Under the pieces are notes generated by a model. It saw only the letters and a program-made list of their open reading frames with translations, did not search any database and was not told the origin of the DNA. Position numbers and translations under genes: made by a program. A DNA stretch of 9,667 bases, from NCBI GenBank assembly GCA_947588665.1, contig CANPYU010000033.1, positions 1-9,667 of the forward strand, given 5' to 3'. Positions 1,174-9,667 of the stretch are shown here, piece by piece; positions within the stretch are counted from its first letter, which is position 1, and every line of letters begins with the position of its first letter. The stretch is from an uncultured Bacilli bacterium. GTDB lineage: Bacteria > Bacillota_I > Bacilli_A > RF39 > UBA660.

Positions 1174-4071
1174 ATGTTTATACCACTTAAGATAACTACA
1201 GAATATACTTTACTTAAAAGTACAATTAAGATAGATAACTTAATTAATTTTTTAAAAGAACATAATATTAAATCTTGTGCTATTATGGATGAAAATTTAT
1301 ATGGAGTTATGAATTTTTATAATAATATGCTTGCTAATAATTTAAAACCTATTATTGGTTTAAATATTAAAATAGATAATTTAAATATTTATTTATACGC
1401 TATAAACTATGAAGGCTATAAAAATTTACTTAAAATTCATACTTTAAAAGAATTTAATGAATTAACCTATGATAATTTAAATAAATATTTAAATAATATT
1501 AAAGTTGTATTACCCTATGGGTCTTATAGTTTATTATCTACTTTTACTAATGCCTATTTAAGTTATTCTTGTGATACTGAAAAACTAGAAGCTTTAATGC
1601 TTAGTAATAATACAGTATATATAAGAGATATTTGTTCATTAACTAAAGAAGACACTAAATATTTAAGTTATTTAGAAGCTATAAATAAAGGTGTATTATT
1701 AAAAGACATAACAACAGATTATATTCTTAAATATTTGAATTTAAATATTAAAGAAGAAGATAAATTAAGTACTATAGAATTTGCTAAAGATATCGATATA
1801 AAAATAGAAAATAACAAAAATTATATTCCTAAATATAAAGATGGTATTAATTCCTATGAGTTTTTAGTTAATTTAGCCCATAAAGGCTTAACTAAAAGGT
1901 TAAATGGAAGTATTCCCGATATCTATTTAAAACGTCTTAACTATGAATTAAATGTGATTAATAATATGGGTTTTGTTGATTATTTTTTAATCGTCTATGA
2001 TTATGTTTTATATGCGAAAAAAAATAATATTTTAGTAGGTCCTGGAAGAGGAAGTGCCGCCGGTTCTTTGGTAAGTTTTTCTATTGGTATAACTAATATT
2101 GACCCCATTAAATATGATTTATTATTTGAAAGGTTTTTAAATCCCGAACGAATAACCATGCCTGATATAGATATAGATTTTGAATATACTAAAAGGGGTT
2201 TAGTAATAGATTATGTAAGAACTCGCTATGGCAAATTTAATGTTGCTCCCATCATGACTTTTGGAACTTTAGGCTCTAAACAAGTAATAAGAGATTTAGG
2301 GAGAGTATTAAATATTGATAATAATTTAATAGACCAAATATCTAAATTAATTGATGCTAAATTAAGTTTAATCGCGAATTTAGAAAAAACTCATTTAAAA
2401 GATTTTTTAAATAACTATCCAGAACTTAAAAATATGTATGAAATAGGTATTAAAATTGAAGGCTTAAAAAGACATATATCAACCCATGCCGCCGGTGTTG
2501 TAATATCAAGCACTCCTTTGGATGAAGTAATACCAATCATTAATAATGGTGAATTTATTATGACGGGTATTACGATGGAATATCTAGAGAATTTAGGCTT
2601 ACTTAAAATGGACTTTCTCGCCTTAAGAAACCTAACGATTATTGCAAATGTTCTCGATTTAATTAAAGAAAATACGGGTAAAACTCTCGATTTAAATAAA
2701 ATAAATTTAAATGACCCCGAAATATTTAAATTATTTTGTGCGGCCGATACCGAAGGCATATTTCAATATGAAAGTTCTGGTATGAAAAACTTAATGCTAA
2801 AAATGAAGCCTTCATCATTCTCGGATTTAGTTGCATCAGTCGCTTTATTTCGTCCTGGTCCAATGATGAATATTGATACCTTTATTGCTCGTAAATATGG
2901 TAAAGAAAAAATAATCTATTTACATCCAGATTTAGAACCTATTTTAAAAGAAACTTATGGTATTATTGTCTATCAAGAGCAAGTAATGCAAATACTAGTT
3001 AAAATTGGAGGCTATACCTATGCTGATGCTGATAACATCAGACGCGCGATGAGCAAGAAAAAAGAAAGTGTAATGTTAAGTGATAAAAAGCATTTTATAG
3101 ATAATGCTCTAAATAGAGGTTATAATCTAAAAGTTGCCTCTGATATCTATGATTTAATCTTAAAATTTGCTAACTATGGTTTTAATAAAGCCCATTCGGT
3201 TTCTTATGCTTTAATAGGTTATCAAATGGCTTATTTAAAAACTAAATTTCCTATTTATTTTATTACTAATTTACTTAATATGAGTATTGGTAGTGAAATT
3301 AAAACTAAAGAATATATTGATGAAGCAAAACTAAAAAATATTCATATCTTAAAACCCGATATTAATATTAGTTCTAATAATTATTTAATATTTAATAATA
3401 GTTTAATGTTACCTCTAAGTAGCATTAAAAACTTAGGCATAAATGCTACTGAATCTATTCTTGAAGAAAGAACTACTAAAGGTAAATTTAAAGATTATTT
3501 AGATTTTGTCAGTCGTACATATGGTAAAAGTGTTAATAAAAAAACTATTATATCTTTAATTGAGGCGGGAGTATTAGATAGTTTTAAAATAAATAAAAAA
3601 ACTATGATTGAAAACCTCGATATCGCGATTAATTATGCAAGCCTAATCGCCGATTTAGATTCTTCCTTTGTCGCTATTCCAACACTAGACGAAAAAGGGG
3701 AATATTCTTTAGAAGAATTAAGAGAAAAAGAATATAATTCTTATGGCTTTTATTTAACTAATCATCCCTCTAGTATTTATAAAGATAAAAATATTATGAA
3801 AATAAATAATATTAGAAATTATTTTGATAAAAGAGTAAGATGTATAGTTTTATTAGAAAAAATGCGTACTATTAAAACTAAAAAAGGGGATAATATGGCT
3901 TTTTTATCTTGTAGTGATGAAACTGGAAGTACTGACTTTGTTATATTCCCCAAAATCTATAATATGCTTTTAAATATTAATAAAGGCGATTTATTAAATA
4001 TAGAAGGAAGAGTAAGCAAAAGATTTGATACTTATCAAATAAATGTTGATATGTTAAATAAAATTAATTAA
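1174..4071 (+). CDS. dnaE: DNA polymerase III alpha subunit, DnaE type (short form)
   Basis: This is a family C replicative DNA polymerase without a proofreading domain. In Gram-positives DnaE extends RNA primers and works with PolC. The product is 965 residues, shorter than the roughly 1,100-1,160 usual in Bacillus or E. coli. Domain order: a degenerate PHP domain (about 1-200); palm with GPGRGSAAGS at 289-298; the catalytic pair in PDIDIDF (D333, D335) and the third acidic residue in KMDFLALRNL (D480); fingers with YQEQVMQI at 600; a GFNKAHSVSYA block; a helix-hairpin-helix region around 745-810; and an OB fold from about 888 to the end. The C-terminal extension of E. coli DnaE is absent. 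The PHP metal-binding HxH is replaced: the N-terminus reads PLKITTEYT where relatives have histidine. The ATG is set by GGGGAG 8 bases upstream. polC lies downstream after one intervening gene. Identification is firm; only the subclass is uncertain. Confidence 0.96.
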   Translation: MFIPLKITTEYTLLKSTIKIDNLINFLKEHNIKSCAIMDENLYGVMNFYNNMLANNLKPIIGLNIKIDNLNIYLYAINYEGYKNLLKIHTLKEFNELTYDNLNKYLNNIKVVLPYGSYSLLSTFTNAYLSYSCDTEKLEALMLSNNTVYIRDICSLTKEDTKYLSYLEAINKGVLLKDITTDYILKYLNLNIKEEDKLSTIEFAKDIDIKIENNKNYIPKYKDGINSYEFLVNLAHKGLTKRLNGSIPDIYLKRLNYELNVINNMGFVDYFLIVYDYVLYAKKNNILVGPGRGSAAGSLVSFSIGITNIDPIKYDLLFERFLNPERITMPDIDIDFEYTKRGLVIDYVRTRYGKFNVAPIMTFGTLGSKQVIRDLGRVLNIDNNLIDQISKLIDAKLSLIANLEKTHLKDFLNNYPELKNMYEIGIKIEGLKRHISTHAAGVVISSTPLDEVIPIINNGEFIMTGITMEYLENLGLLKMDFLALRNLTIIANVLDLIKENTGKTLDLNKINLNDPEIFKLFCAADTEGIFQYESSGMKNLMLKMKPSSFSDLVASVALFRPGPMMNIDTFIARKYGKEKIIYLHPDLEPILKETYGIIVYQEQVMQILVKIGGYTYADADNIRRAMSKKKESVMLSDKKHFIDNALNRGYNLKVASDIYDLILKFANYGFNKAHSVSYALIGYQMAYLKTKFPIYFITNLLNMSIGSEIKTKEYIDEAKLKNIHILKPDINISSNNYLIFNNSLMLPLSSIKNLGINATESILEERTTKGKFKDYLDFVSRTYGKSVNKKTIISLIEAGVLDSFKINKKTMIENLDIAINYASLIADLDSSFVAIPTLDEKGEYSLEELREKEYNSYGFYLTNHPSSIYKDKNIMKINNIRNYFDKRVRCIVLLEKMRTIKTKKGDNMAFLSCSDETGSTDFVIFPKIYNMLLNINKGDLLNIEGRVSKRFDTYQINVDMLNKIN

Positions 4072-4151: not shown

Positions 4152-4187
4152 TAAAAAAGATATAACTTATAGAAGGGAATGAAATAT

Positions 4188-5426
4188 ATGGAAATTAAAA
4201 GAGATAGTTATTTAAATAAATTAATCGAAAAACAAGATAATGGGTTAATTAAAATTATTACAGGTATTAGAAGATGTGGAAAATCTTATTTATTAGACCC
4301 CTTATTTAAAAATTATCTTTTAGCTCATGATGTTGATTTAAAACATATTATTAAAATTGATTTAGATATTAAAGAAAACGAAAAGTATTTAGACCCTAAT
4401 GTTTTAAATGAATATATAAAATCACAAATAATAGATGAAGAAAAATATTATATATTATTGGATGAAATACAAAAAGTTCCAGATTTTGAATCAGTTTTAA
4501 ATGGCTTTTTAAAAATAAAAAATGTTGATATATATGTCACGGGCAGTAATTCTAAATTTTTATCAACTGATATTATCACCGAATTTAGAGGTCGAAGTGA
4601 CGAAATAAGAGTTTATCCTTTATCTTTTAAAGAATTTTATTCTGTAAAAAATGAAGATTTAAGAGAATCATGGAAAGAATATATAACCTATGGAGGATTA
4701 CCTCTTATTTTAAAGCAAAAAACTATTGAAAGTAAAATTAATTATTTAAAAACTCAACGTGATAATGTCTATATAAATGATGTTGTTGAAAGAAATAATA
4801 TTAAAGATGAACAAGATTTAAACTCTCTCGTGGAAATTGTATCCTCTGCAGTTGGTTCACTTACTAATCCTTTAAAGTTATCTAAAACTTATCGGGGAAA
4901 TAATATTAATTCTACTATGACTGATAAAACTGTTTATAATTATTTAAAGTATTTACAAGAAGCTTTTATAATTGATAAAAGTCTTAGATATGATATAAAA
5001 GGAAAGCAGTATATTGAAACTCCTCAGAAATATTATTTTACCGATATAGGCATTCGCAATTCTTTTTTAGATTTTAGGCAAATAGAAGAAAATCATATCA
5101 TGGAAAATATTATTTTTATTGAATTAAAAAGAAGAGGCTTTAATGTTGATGTTGGAGTAGTAGAATGTAAAGAAAAAAATAAAAGTAATAAACTAGAAAT
5201 AGATTTTATAGCTAATAAAGGTAGTGATAAATACTATATTCAATCGGCTCTTAATATAGATACTGAAGAAAAAAAAGAACAAGAATTTAGACCATTTAGA
5301 AATATAAATGATTTCTTTAAAAGAATATTAATTGTTAAAGATGATATAGTATCATATACCAATGAAGAAGGAATATTAATTCTTAGTATTTTTGATTTTT
5401 TATTAAATGATGATTCTATTAAATAA
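4188..5426 (+). CDS. AAA_14/DUF4143-family P-loop ATPase
   Basis: This is a 412-residue P-loop ATPase with the layout of the common but poorly understood AAA_14/DUF4143 family. Walker A is GIRRCGKS (26-33), with K32 and S33. Walker B is YILLDEIQKV, with D92-E93. A sensor-like TGSNS follows at 118-122, then the family-typical FRGR...YPLSFKEFY stretch and a helical DUF4143-like region. The C-terminal segment reads LEIDFIA then YYIQSA, resembling a PD-(D/E)xK nuclease fold with the usual lysine apparently replaced, so nuclease activity is doubtful. Start choice: ATG at 4179 sits one base after GAAGGG, too close for a ribosome; ATG at 4188 has about 9-10 bases of spacing and is preferred. The gene has its own promoter and lies between dnaE and polC, 26 bases from polC. 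Base composition matches its neighbours. Its cellular role is unknown, and neighbourhood alone does not show a replication function. Confidence 0.85.
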   Translation: MEIKRDSYLNKLIEKQDNGLIKIITGIRRCGKSYLLDPLFKNYLLAHDVDLKHIIKIDLDIKENEKYLDPNVLNEYIKSQIIDEEKYYILLDEIQKVPDFESVLNGFLKIKNVDIYVTGSNSKFLSTDIITEFRGRSDEIRVYPLSFKEFYSVKNEDLRESWKEYITYGGLPLILKQKTIESKINYLKTQRDNVYINDVVERNNIKDEQDLNSLVEIVSSAVGSLTNPLKLSKTYRGNNINSTMTDKTVYNYLKYLQEAFIIDKSLRYDIKGKQYIETPQKYYFTDIGIRNSFLDFRQIEENHIMENIIFIELKRRGFNVDVGVVECKEKNKSNKLEIDFIANKGSDKYYIQSALNIDTEEKKEQEFRPFRNINDFFKRILIVKDDIVSYTNEEGILILSIFDFLLNDDSIK

Positions 5427-5438
5427 ATAAACAAATAA

Positions 5439-5455
5439 GTGGGGTGAATATTATG
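5439..5455 (+). promoter_or_regulatory. ribosome-binding site that fixes the polC start at ATG 5453
   Basis: GTGGGGTGA (5439-5447) can pair with the 16S anti-Shine-Dalgarno and lies 5 bases before ATG 5453. The alternative GTG start at 5444 is inside this element and cannot use it, so the shorter product is preferred. Confidence 0.7.
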
Positions 5456-7615
5456 CATGATTTAAATAGTTTTTTTAAAAGTATTAATTTTAATGATAAA
5501 GAAGAATTACTAAAAGATGTTAATATTTCTAAAGTAGTTTTAAATAAAAAAGAAAAGATATTTAATGTCTATTTAAAAAATTCTACTGTTTTACCATTTA
5601 ATATTATAGATAAATTAATAAATAATAAATATAAAATAAATAATACTTATGATTGTAATATTTATATTGATTATGATACCATAACTAGTACTGATGTATT
5701 ATCATATATTGAAGAAATAATAAAAAGATTAGTCGCGGAAAAACCTGCTTTAATTAGTTTATTAGATAATAAACCCATAATTGATGATGATATAATTATT
5801 TTTGAAGTAATAAGTAACATTGAAGAAGAAAGAATAAAAAAAGAAGCTGGAAACATCAGTAAAATTTTAACTAATTTAGGTATCAAAGATTATTATATTA
5901 CTACTAAATTAAATGAAGAAAAGCAAAAAGAAGTAGAAGAAACTCTAAAGGATGTGCAAAAACCGGCAACTTATCAAGAAGTAGTTCATGAATATACTCC
6001 GGGTGAAGTAATCATGGGTAAAAATATTACAAAAGAATGCACTCCAATTAGCAGTATCACTAATATAGGTAGAAATATAACTATTGAAGGTTATATTGAA
6101 TCTATTTCTTATTTAGAAAGAGATAATATTAATATTATTACTTTATCTATCAATGATAATAATAAAAGTATTATGGCGAAAATATTTAAGAAAGATAAAG
6201 AAGAATATTTGCCATTAAAAAACACTTTAAAAGAAGAAAATTGGTATCGTTTAAATGGCAATGTTGATTTTGATTCCTATTCTAAATGTTTAAGTCTTGG
6301 CGTTAGAAATTTAGAAGCTATTGAAAATAGAGAAATAATTATCTCTAAAAGTGAAGACCCTAATATTATTATTGGCGAACATATTGAGGGGGATATTACG
6401 CCTATCACAAATATTTTAGGAGCCATGGAAAATATAATTGTAGAAGCTTATGTTTTTGGTACTGATTTAAAAGAAACTGATAATATCAATATTATGACTT
6501 TAAAAATAAGTGATAATACTAGTAGTATTCTAGCAAAAATTTTTAAGAAAAATAAAAGAGAATTCGGCTTAATTAAAAGTGCATTAAAAGATGCTCCTAA
6601 AAAAAAGAGTTGGTTTCGTATCTCAGGCAATGTTGAATTTGATAATTATGATAATGAATTAGTCTTTCAAATTTGGAATTTAGAAAGTATTGAAAATAAA
6701 GTGGAAAAAATCATTGATGATGCGCCCCTTAAAAGAGTTGAACTTCACACCCATACAATGATGAGTATGATGGATGGAGTAATACCTAATGATGAAAAAG
6801 ACCCTAATAATATTGTTGATTTTGCGAGTAGATTAGGTTATAAAGCGGTCGCTGTAACTGACCATAATGCTCTACAAGCTTATCCCAATTTATTTCATGC
6901 CGTAAATAGTATTAATAAAGGTCGTGATAAAGATAATCATTTTAAAGTTATATATGGAACAGAATTAAATGTTGTAAATGATGATATTGATTTTATTCAT
7001 AATTTAAGAGATTATAACTTACTTAATCAAGAATATGTTGTATTTGATACTGAAACAACCGGCTTTTATGTTGGCAGTGACCAAATGATTGAAATTGGGG
7101 CAGTTAAAATTAAAGCGGGCGAAGTAATTGACCGTTTTGATGAATTTATTGACCCGGGAAGATCTATCCCTGAAAAAATAACTGAATTAACTAATATTAC
7201 TGATGAAATGTTAAAAGGGCATGATAATGAAGAAACTGTTACTAAAAGATTTCTTGAATGGACTGGCCCTTTACCAATGGTTGCTCATAATGCTAAATTT
7301 GATATTGGTTTTATCAGCGCGGCTTGTGCTAAATATAATTTAGGCGAATTTACGAATACTGTTTTAGATACAATGAGTATGGCGCGAATGCTTCATCCTG
7401 AGTGGCCTAATCACAAACTTACCACTTTAGCTCGTCGTTATAAAGTCGAATGGGATGAAGATGCTCATCACCGGGCTGATTATGATGCTGAAGGAACTGC
7501 TCATGCTTTTCATAAAATGTGTGAAGAATTAGATGCTCGTAATATTGAAACAACCACCAAATTATTTAATTCAGTTGATATAAATGAATTAATTAAATTC
7601 TCTTATCCTAGTTAA
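5453..7615 (+). CDS. polC: DNA polymerase III PolC, N-terminal half (N-domain, two OB folds, half PHP, proofreading exonuclease); frame ends early
   Basis: This is the first 720 residues of PolC, the main proofreading replicase of low-GC Gram-positives, normally about 1,440 residues long. Domain order: N-terminal domain (about 1-170); two tandem OB-like domains (about 185-292 and 304-415) where Bacillus has one; the first half of the PHP domain, with HTH at 432-434 and TDH at 469-471, metal ligands kept; then a DEDDh 3'-5' exonuclease. The exonuclease has DTE (D532, E534), HNAKFD (D617) and HHRADYD (H673, D678), so it looks complete. The frame ends with TAA right after the exonuclease, where PolC should return to the PHP domain and then the polymerase core. 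The rest follows in another frame (7593-9667), so this is a broken gene or a naturally split one. It is probably transcribed together with the upstream ATPase gene; no convincing promoter was seen in the 26-base gap. Confidence 0.93.
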   Translation: MHDLNSFFKSINFNDKEELLKDVNISKVVLNKKEKIFNVYLKNSTVLPFNIIDKLINNKYKINNTYDCNIYIDYDTITSTDVLSYIEEIIKRLVAEKPALISLLDNKPIIDDDIIIFEVISNIEEERIKKEAGNISKILTNLGIKDYYITTKLNEEKQKEVEETLKDVQKPATYQEVVHEYTPGEVIMGKNITKECTPISSITNIGRNITIEGYIESISYLERDNINIITLSINDNNKSIMAKIFKKDKEEYLPLKNTLKEENWYRLNGNVDFDSYSKCLSLGVRNLEAIENREIIISKSEDPNIIIGEHIEGDITPITNILGAMENIIVEAYVFGTDLKETDNINIMTLKISDNTSSILAKIFKKNKREFGLIKSALKDAPKKKSWFRISGNVEFDNYDNELVFQIWNLESIENKVEKIIDDAPLKRVELHTHTMMSMMDGVIPNDEKDPNNIVDFASRLGYKAVAVTDHNALQAYPNLFHAVNSINKGRDKDNHFKVIYGTELNVVNDDIDFIHNLRDYNLLNQEYVVFDTETTGFYVGSDQMIEIGAVKIKAGEVIDRFDEFIDPGRSIPEKITELTNITDEMLKGHDNEETVTKRFLEWTGPLPMVAHNAKFDIGFISAACAKYNLGEFTNTVLDTMSMARMLHPEWPNHKLTTLARRYKVEWDEDAHHRADYDAEGTAHAFHKMCEELDARNIETTTKLFNSVDINELIKFSYPS
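6005..6697 (+). repeat. tandem duplication of the OB-fold domain inside PolC
   Basis: Copy 1 is about 6005-6328 and copy 2 about 6362-6697, offset by 119 codons at the start. Matching landmarks are TPI, DNINI-TL, SI-AKIFKK, W-R--GNV-FD-Y and NLE-IEN. By hand alignment about 45 of 100 positions are identical, with a 3-4-residue insert in copy 2. The DNA has diverged more than the protein, so the duplication is not recent. Copy 2 is next to the PHP domain and so occupies the usual OB position. Copy 1 is the extra unit. Confidence 0.75.
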
Positions 7616-9667
7616 GAATAAAGTAGGTTTAAAAAATTTATTTAAAATTATATCATACGCGAATACTACTTATTTATTTCGTGGCAGTGAACCCAAACTT
7701 CCTCGCGGTGAACTAAAAAAATTAAGAGAAGGCTTGCTTATTGGGAGTGGTTGTATTAATGGGGAAATATTTGAAGAAGCCAAAACTAAAGATGATGAAG
7801 AACTAGGAGGGTTAATGCAATTTTATGATTATATTGAGGTTCAACCCATCAGTGCTTTTAAACATTTATTAGAAATGGAATCTAGTGGTTTTCATACCCT
7901 TAAAGATTTAGAAGAGCATCTAAAAAAGATTATTCGGGTTGCTAAAAGTGCTGGAAAAATTGTTGTTGCAACCAGTGATGCGCATTATTTAAGACCTCAA
8001 GACAAAATATATCGTGATATCATTATTGCTCAAAAAACAAACGGTAAACTGCATCCTTTAAATAAAAGGGGTGTTAATCAACCTGATATGCATTTTCGAA
8101 CTACTCAAGAAATGTTAGATGAATTTGCCTTTTTAGGTGAAGAATTAGCCTATGAAATTGTGGTTACTAATACTAATAAAATTGCCGACATGATAGAAGA
8201 AGTAGAAGTAATTATCCAAACCGGTGGAGTTCCTTTTTCACCAAAGATTGACCATTCTATTGAAACTGTAACCGATTTAGTCTATACTAAAGCCGCTTCT
8301 TGGTATGGTAATCCTTTACCCTATAATATTGAAGAAAGAATATCTAAAGAATTATACGGCGATGCTGTCTTAGATAGCATTAAAACTAAATTAATTAGAG
8401 AAGAGTCTTTAGAAGGGGAAGAACTAACCACTAAATCTTTTGCTATCCTTCATGATACTATTTTAAAAGGAATGGATGCTGTAAAAGAAGTAGTAAAAAG
8501 TGAATTAATATTAAAATTACAAAAAGAACACGAAGCTAAAATTGAAGAATTAGAAACTAAAATATCTACTTTAGAAGGGGAAGAAAAAGAAGAACTTACA
8601 AAAGAACTAGAAACTCTAAAAGAGTCAGACCCTCTAACAGATATAGATAAATCAGTTAAAAAAGCTTTAGGAGGTATCATCGGTGGCGGTTTTGACGTTA
8701 TCTATCTAATTGCTCAAAAATTAGTTAAAAAGAGCAATGACGATGGCTTTTTAGTTGGCTCTCGTGGTTCTGTTGGTTCAAGCTTTGTTGCAACCATGAT
8801 GGGTATTACCGAAGTTAATTCTTTACCACCTCATTATCGTTGTAAAAATTGTTGTCATAGTATTTTTGATGATGAATTGGGTAATCCTTTGGGAGCTACT
8901 TATAAAAGTGGTTTTGATCTTCCTGATTATGTTTGTCCTAAATGTGGTACTAAAATGACTAAAGATGGTCAAGACATGCCTTTCGCGACTTTCTTAGGTT
9001 TTAATGCTGATAAAGTACCTGACATCGACTTAAACTTTTCGGATTTAAATCAAGCGGCCGCCCATGAATATACTAAAGTTTTATTTGGCGTTGACAATGT
9101 TTATCGGGCTGGAACTATAGGTACCGTTGCCGAAAAAACTGCCTATGGTTTTGTAAAAGCTTATGCCGAACAAAAGGGTATTGTAATTAATCGCGCTGAA
9201 ATAGAACGTCTTGCAATTGGCTGCACTGGAGTTAAAAGAACTACGGGCCAACATCCAGGTGGAATTGTTGTTATCCCAGGTTATATGGATGTCTTTGATT
9301 TTACACCTTTTCAATATCCAGCCGAAGATATCGATGCTGCCTGGCGAACCACCCATTTTGATTATCATGCGATTGATGAAGATGTCTTAAAACTTGATAT
9401 TTTAGGTCATACTGACCCAACTCAACTGCGCATGATTCAAGATATCTCCGGAATTGATGTAACTACCGTCCCTCTAGATGACAAAGAAACTATGGGTATA
9501 TTCTTATCACCCGAGCCACTTGGAGTTACTAAAGAACAAATTATGAATGAAACAGGAACTTTAGGTGTCCCCGAGTTTGGTACTCCTTTTACAATTGGTA
9601 TGCTTGTTGATACTAAACCTAAAACTTTTGCCGAACTTATTAAAATTTCTGGTTTATCCCACGGGAC
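7593..9667 (+). CDS. polC: PolC, C-terminal portion (rest of PHP domain, zinc motif, polymerase palm) in a shifted frame; runs off window
   Basis: This is an open frame of about 690 codons to the right edge, preceded by an in-frame TAA at 7590-7592; recognisable PolC homology starts near 7608. It contains the rest of PHP (GLLIGSG, DYIEVQP, and the metal-binding SDAHY at 7974-7988); HFRTTQEMLDEFAFLGEE; an unusual charged insertion (8355-8672); GSRGSVGSSFVATM; a zinc-binding C-x2-C pair set (Cys codons at 8841, 8850, 8934, 8943); the catalytic PDIDLNF (Asp at 9021 and 9027); GCTGVKRTTGQHPGG; and the third catalytic Asp in LKLDILGH (9396). All polymerase residues in view are intact, and no second break occurs. 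The fingers and C-terminal end lie beyond the window. The first usable ATG is at 7815, behind a perfect AGGAGG; an alternative TTG is at 7734. Whether this half is translated separately, fused in the real genome, or dead cannot be told here. Confidence 0.9.
7607..7616 (+). other. polC: polC reading-frame break (apparent ~17-base deletion)
   Basis: The first frame reads ...F-S-Y-P-S-stop. PolC homology resumes in the +1 frame as L-V-K-N-K-V-G-L-K-N. In Bacillus PolC (from memory) the proline is followed by Y-H-A-T-L-L-A-V-N-S-T-G-L-K-N, so five to six residues are missing here. The frame change needs a loss of 3n+2 bases. A 17-base loss fits both the frame and the missing residues. An ancestral CTAGT on each side of the lost segment, collapsed to the single CTAGT at 7608-7612, would explain it. 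The ancestral sequence is inferred. Confidence 0.7.
7805..7817 (+). promoter_or_regulatory. internal Shine-Dalgarno plus ATG in the second half of polC
   Basis: AGGAGG at 7805-7810 is followed after 4 bases by ATG at 7815, in the frame of the downstream half. It is about 200 bases after the stop of the first half. It would yield a protein starting MQFYDYIEVQP, missing about 70 residues of PHP. The hexamer also encodes Leu-Gly-Gly, so it may be coincidence. Confidence 0.35.
8355..8672 (+). other. ~106-residue charged, coiled-coil-like insertion in PolC
   Basis: In Bacillus PolC, as recalled, the helix ending I-E-K-E-L runs almost directly into the IIGHGFAVIYLI segment. Here the equivalent KEL (ends 8354) and GIIGGGFDVIYL (from 8673) are separated by about 106 residues. 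The insertion starts YGDAVLDSIKTKL. Its second half, roughly 8496-8637, is dominated by Lys, Glu and Leu in a heptad-like pattern (KIEELETKISTLEGEEKEEL). It stays in frame and keeps the local base composition, so it reads as part of the protein. It may be shared by a clade rather than unique. Confidence 0.65.

Follow-up and report, generated by a model that had tools for sequence, protein, structure and literature searches.

The window, by which we mean the whole 9,667-nucleotide stretch of DNA analysed, carries dnaE and polC on its forward strand. The dnaE gene (1174..4071) is a single open frame of 965 amino acids, and in relatives it lies directly 5′ of polC. The window's polC has the same position after dnaE as in relatives, where a dnaE match occurs just upstream of polC in 28 of the first 60 loci. 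The gap between these two genes is at most 66 bases in 27 of the 28 loci, and is 866 bases in locus L008. On this contig, a gene for an AAA_14/DUF4143 ATPase (Pfam; 4179..5426, forward strand) lies between dnaE and polC, and tblastn at E 1e-15 found no copy of it in 80 fetched relative loci. The large ORFs of the window other than polC have no frame break. At the start of the window, positions 3-1088 form a partial ORF for which neither Pfam nor NCBIfam gave a match at E 0.001; within it, positions 716-920 resemble positions 362-572 of locus L001 with 73% DNA identity.

The polC gene is read in two frames, both on the forward strand, and changes frame and stops at 7608-7615. The first frame, ORF1 (5444..7615), encodes 723 amino acids; the database copy starts at 5453 and has 720. 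ORF1 begins with an N-terminal domain and two OB-like domains; these are followed by the first part of the PHP domain (PF02811; 6740..7003, residues 433-520) and by a complete exonuclease domain (PF00929; 7037..7510, residues 532-689, profile positions 1-164 of 164). Its C-terminal end reads ...KFSYPS and is followed by a TAA (7613-7615). The second frame (7608..9667) holds the rest of the PHP domain and the polymerase up to the contig end (PF07733 and PF17657). It is open from 7593, the upstream stop ending at 7592, and its alignment to PolC starts at 7608; its 686 codons run without a stop to the contig end, and it is 92% identical to the protein P0121. The frames overlap by about 20 bases (7593-7612) before the stop.

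The identity of the gene as polC, proposed in the initial annotation, is borne out by the domain order of the two pieces together. The same annotation placed the split exactly at the boundary between exonuclease and PHP domain, which proved slightly off: the exonuclease match ends at residue 689, and the break comes 34 residues later, at 723, where the second PHP part begins. The nearest relative is the MAG of L001, with protein identities of 89% and 92% for the two halves. The nearest relative with a Candidatus name, among those listed, is Candidatus Caccenecus avistercoris (L013).

In comparison with the intact PolC of the genus (NF001688 / TIGR01405; L001 / P0121), the window shares the domain order and the place after dnaE, but it is 17 bases shorter, its frame is broken, a PHP histidine is lost and the extra ATPase gene precedes polC. 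Together, the two pieces have the order expected of PolC, that is, an N-terminal region, a PHP domain with inserted exonuclease and a polymerase core, inside which the contig ends. There is no single uninterrupted frame, given the TAA and the frame change. The NF001688 cut-off is 873 bits in one protein; the pieces score 413.5 and 872.8 bits, the second being cut by the contig end. The OB-like stretches are a tandem pair in this PolC (window 6029-6739, ORF1 residues 196-432), with 45.6% identity to each other over 103 columns (E 7e-30). This tandem may explain the longer PolC of the genus, which has ~1670 amino acids, as against ~1430-1550 in many relatives.

A loss of 17 bases at the junction (7608..7615, forward strand), the size predicted in the initial annotation, is confirmed. 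A real polC match was obtained in 35 genomes of the same genus, and in every one of them the aligned stretch is exactly 17 bases longer than that of the window, so a one-base slip is excluded. The same-genus set consists of 36 genomes from the genus of the closest relative, of which G309 was left out, having a spurious match only. The difference was obtained by subtracting aligned lengths, and the G304 match consists of two parts that lie at contig ends. We also fetched the best 80 of 267 relatives from a scan of genome_contigs, a set that overlaps with the 36 genomes. All 79 loci that span the site read through it; the remaining locus, L023, begins downstream of the polC site and was left out. 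When 27 of the 79 were aligned with the window at the DNA level, one 17-column gap resulted and no other internal gap over ~260 bases. The comparison with close relatives that the initial annotation called for thus found no polC that is split here.

The missing bases encode real residues, as had also been proposed. The suggested block, Y/S-H-x-T-x-L, was a close guess, although genus relatives read P-[FY]-H-L-C-C-L at the lost site, followed by a V-K/Q-N block. The HLCC sequence is held by 29 of the 80 loci and by 67 of 238 listed proteins, and more distant relatives have H-V-N-I-L and similar sequences. Every one of the 79 loci spanning the site has the histidine, and so does every listed database protein extending that far (222 of 222, of which 215 were recognised by motif and 7 by alignment). 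The other 16 of the 238 listed proteins, including the window's own, end before the histidine site and were not counted.

The lost histidine (query residue 721) should correspond to H83 of E. coli Pol III, judging from a match range that places query residue 720 against Pol III residue 82 at its start. The alignment to the G. kaustophilus PolC chain likewise has a histidine at the lost position. Table 1 of PMC3666897 gives H83 as the sixth of nine metal ligands and aligns it with H620 of G. kaustophilus PolC. By these alignment ranges, the break in the window would remove ligand 6 of the PHP metal site. Eight of the nine ligands are present by motif: ligands 1-5 are in ORF1 and ligands 7-9 are in the second frame. 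The earlier idea of a PHP site assembled from two polypeptides therefore holds in that the remaining ligands are on separate pieces, but ligand 6 is on neither of them. All nine ligands are described as strongly conserved in PolC (PMC3919608).

We considered how the 17 bases might have gone missing. The initial annotation suggested the collapse of two CTAGT repeats, for which the window alone is no test, since a collapse leaves one copy. Among the 27 aligned relatives, none has the left CTAGT copy, and the suggestion is unsupported. The microhomology left at the junction would amount to only 1-3 bases, depending on which synonymous bases were present. We found no direct repeats at 7560-7680, and no long repeat that could explain a graph collapse was seen around the junction. 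Nine inverted pairs, all imperfect, occur at 7560-7680 in an AT-rich stretch. One of these has 25 bases, is 76% complementary and has a left arm that ends at the junction; we draw no inference from it. The matching stretch of L001 has no unusual hairpin (z -0.96).

The possibility that the contig joins two species here was rejected. L001 is the best match with near-full coverage on both flanks, with DNA identities of 89.0% on the left and 88.2% on the right. Both flanks are therefore closest to the same relative, and no join of distant strains occurs at the break. For the last segment of the window (8601-9667), identity to L003 exceeds that to L001 by a narrow margin (86.6% against 86.3%).

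The sequence on both sides of the break is under constraint. The dN/dS ratio between the window and L001 is 0.100 before the break and 0.065 after it, and for five intact pairs it is 0.061-0.256 before the break site and 0.060-0.155 after; these values are rough, as synonymous distances are high (0.36-0.98 in the intact pairs). Past the break, substitutions unique to the window branch and to the L001 branch are similar in number, at 21/18, 16/12, 12/20 and 17/16 with four outgroups. Under rough assumptions, such counts would allow an unconstrained share of at most ~2% of the window branch. Given that the sequence after the break is constrained like that of intact pairs, any dead copy would have arisen very recently, unless the genome itself does not carry the break.

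A very recent lesion in a gene constrained up to now would also fit a fixed lesion in a cell where an intact second polC does the work, the window copy being a fresh pseudogene. We regard this as improbable. In five close genomes, a single unbroken polC match was obtained per genome, and a second full-length match to a 601-base query occurs in none of the 36 genus genomes. Moreover, it is the window copy that lies downstream of dnaE, as polC does in relatives.

The best reading, to which we assign a probability of roughly 0.87, is a one-off loss of 17 bases in this contig, and not a fixed, working split gene. It agrees with the initial annotation, which offered a misassembly or a minority variant as one outcome, and no examined relative shares the break. 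As to the cause, an artefact of assembly or reads has about an even chance, while a dead allele that is in the minority or of very recent origin is somewhat less likely. The truncated PolC protein forms a cluster with a single member, on one contig of 9,667 bases, a length which suggests that the window is probably that entire contig. Apart from the one-off loss, this is a normal polC from an uncultured member of the Bacilli; the loss interrupts its reading frame where the second PHP part begins. If a cell had no other copy, its product would be an N-terminal fragment with the exonuclease, and functional polymerase would be scarce or absent. As most likely read, the locus calls for caution when an essential gene in a metagenome assembly is broken on one contig alone.

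The two pieces could alternatively be a working PolC, in which ORF1 supplies the exonuclease and the first PHP part, and a separately started protein supplies the second PHP part and the polymerase. Both halves are constrained, as noted, and constraint alone is no argument against a working split, since a split enzyme would be expected to be constrained too. The first in-frame ATG, GTG or TTG start of the second frame is a TTG (7734..7736, forward strand), which is poorly spaced from a AGAGAAGG run ending one base before it. The next start is more like a ribosome site, with AGGAGGG and then a well-spaced ATG at 7815 (7805..7817, forward strand). These starts lie 118 and 199 bases past the stop, and using them would cost 42 or 69 residues, respectively, after 7608. 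The ribosome-site-like run before the start at 7815 is also only partly shared: L001 alone of 18 relatives has GGAGG there, and L003 and L009 have AGGAAG.

PMC3666897 reports variant PHP domains, in Pol III as well as in PolC, in which the set of ligands is incomplete, so one lost ligand need not kill the enzyme. The same source also states that E. coli Pol III depends on an intact PHP domain for its stability and its activity. In the window, ligand 6 and the residues surrounding it are on neither piece. No examined relative is split at this place, and the truncated protein is, again, the only member of its cluster. It is thus very unlikely that a two-piece PolC works here, or that the strain lives with one whose PHP site is without ligand 6 and whose polymerase piece is started inside the old gene. 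If the split did work, the PHP domain of PolC could form from two chains and dispense with one metal ligand.

A replicase coded in two frames is known from cyanobacterial DnaE, which is split by an intein (described in PMC3919608). The pieces in the window differ from that system in being adjacent, and no intein family was found in either polC piece (Pfam, E 0.001).

A +1 ribosomal frameshift in the overlap of the frames before the stop (7593-7612) could in principle join them into a single PolC chain that lacks a short internal stretch. Known frameshift sites of the prfB kind have a slippery site and a ribosome-site-like run, but neither was seen by eye at the junction. All 27 aligned relatives keep the frame, so there is no conserved frameshift signal, and the product would still be without ligand 6. 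We consider a frameshift the most far-fetched of the explanations, and a one-off loss in this contig remains our preferred one.

Breaks in polC also occur elsewhere. Polymerase genes are reported to be met in fragmented form, mostly by frameshifts, some of which are perhaps sequencing or assembly errors (PMC3919608). We found two such cases, L022 and G255, that likewise have a single frame break in a conserved polC, but at other positions than that of the window. In L022, the only such case in the 80 loci, the break is at residue 1363 of P0182, near position 10185 of the locus. In G255 (L123), it is at residue 902 of P0187, near position 3670. Three short-looking cases were fetched, of which G255 alone has a frame break; it is an example and not a rate, taken from the listed part of the matches, which occur in 282 of 288 genomes. 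The junction pattern of the window is absent from viral_contigs, and a literature search for a split or frameshifted polC found none described in the titles or the openings of abstracts among the papers listed.

Short PolC proteins, as defined by a length rule, were also listed (120 of 724 matches). Their ends are scattered along the protein, with a mild excess, among those listed, at reference positions ~690-750. We rejected a recurrent natural split at this residue, as only the window's own protein, among the 120 listed, ends there. Four more distant fragments (P0039, P0040, P0047 and P0053), which belong to this mild excess, have frame-broken tails that resemble one another. The tails lie at the PHP strand where the window's polC breaks, or in the linker immediately preceding that strand. 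The stretch in which these tails occur could be prone to deletion or to error.
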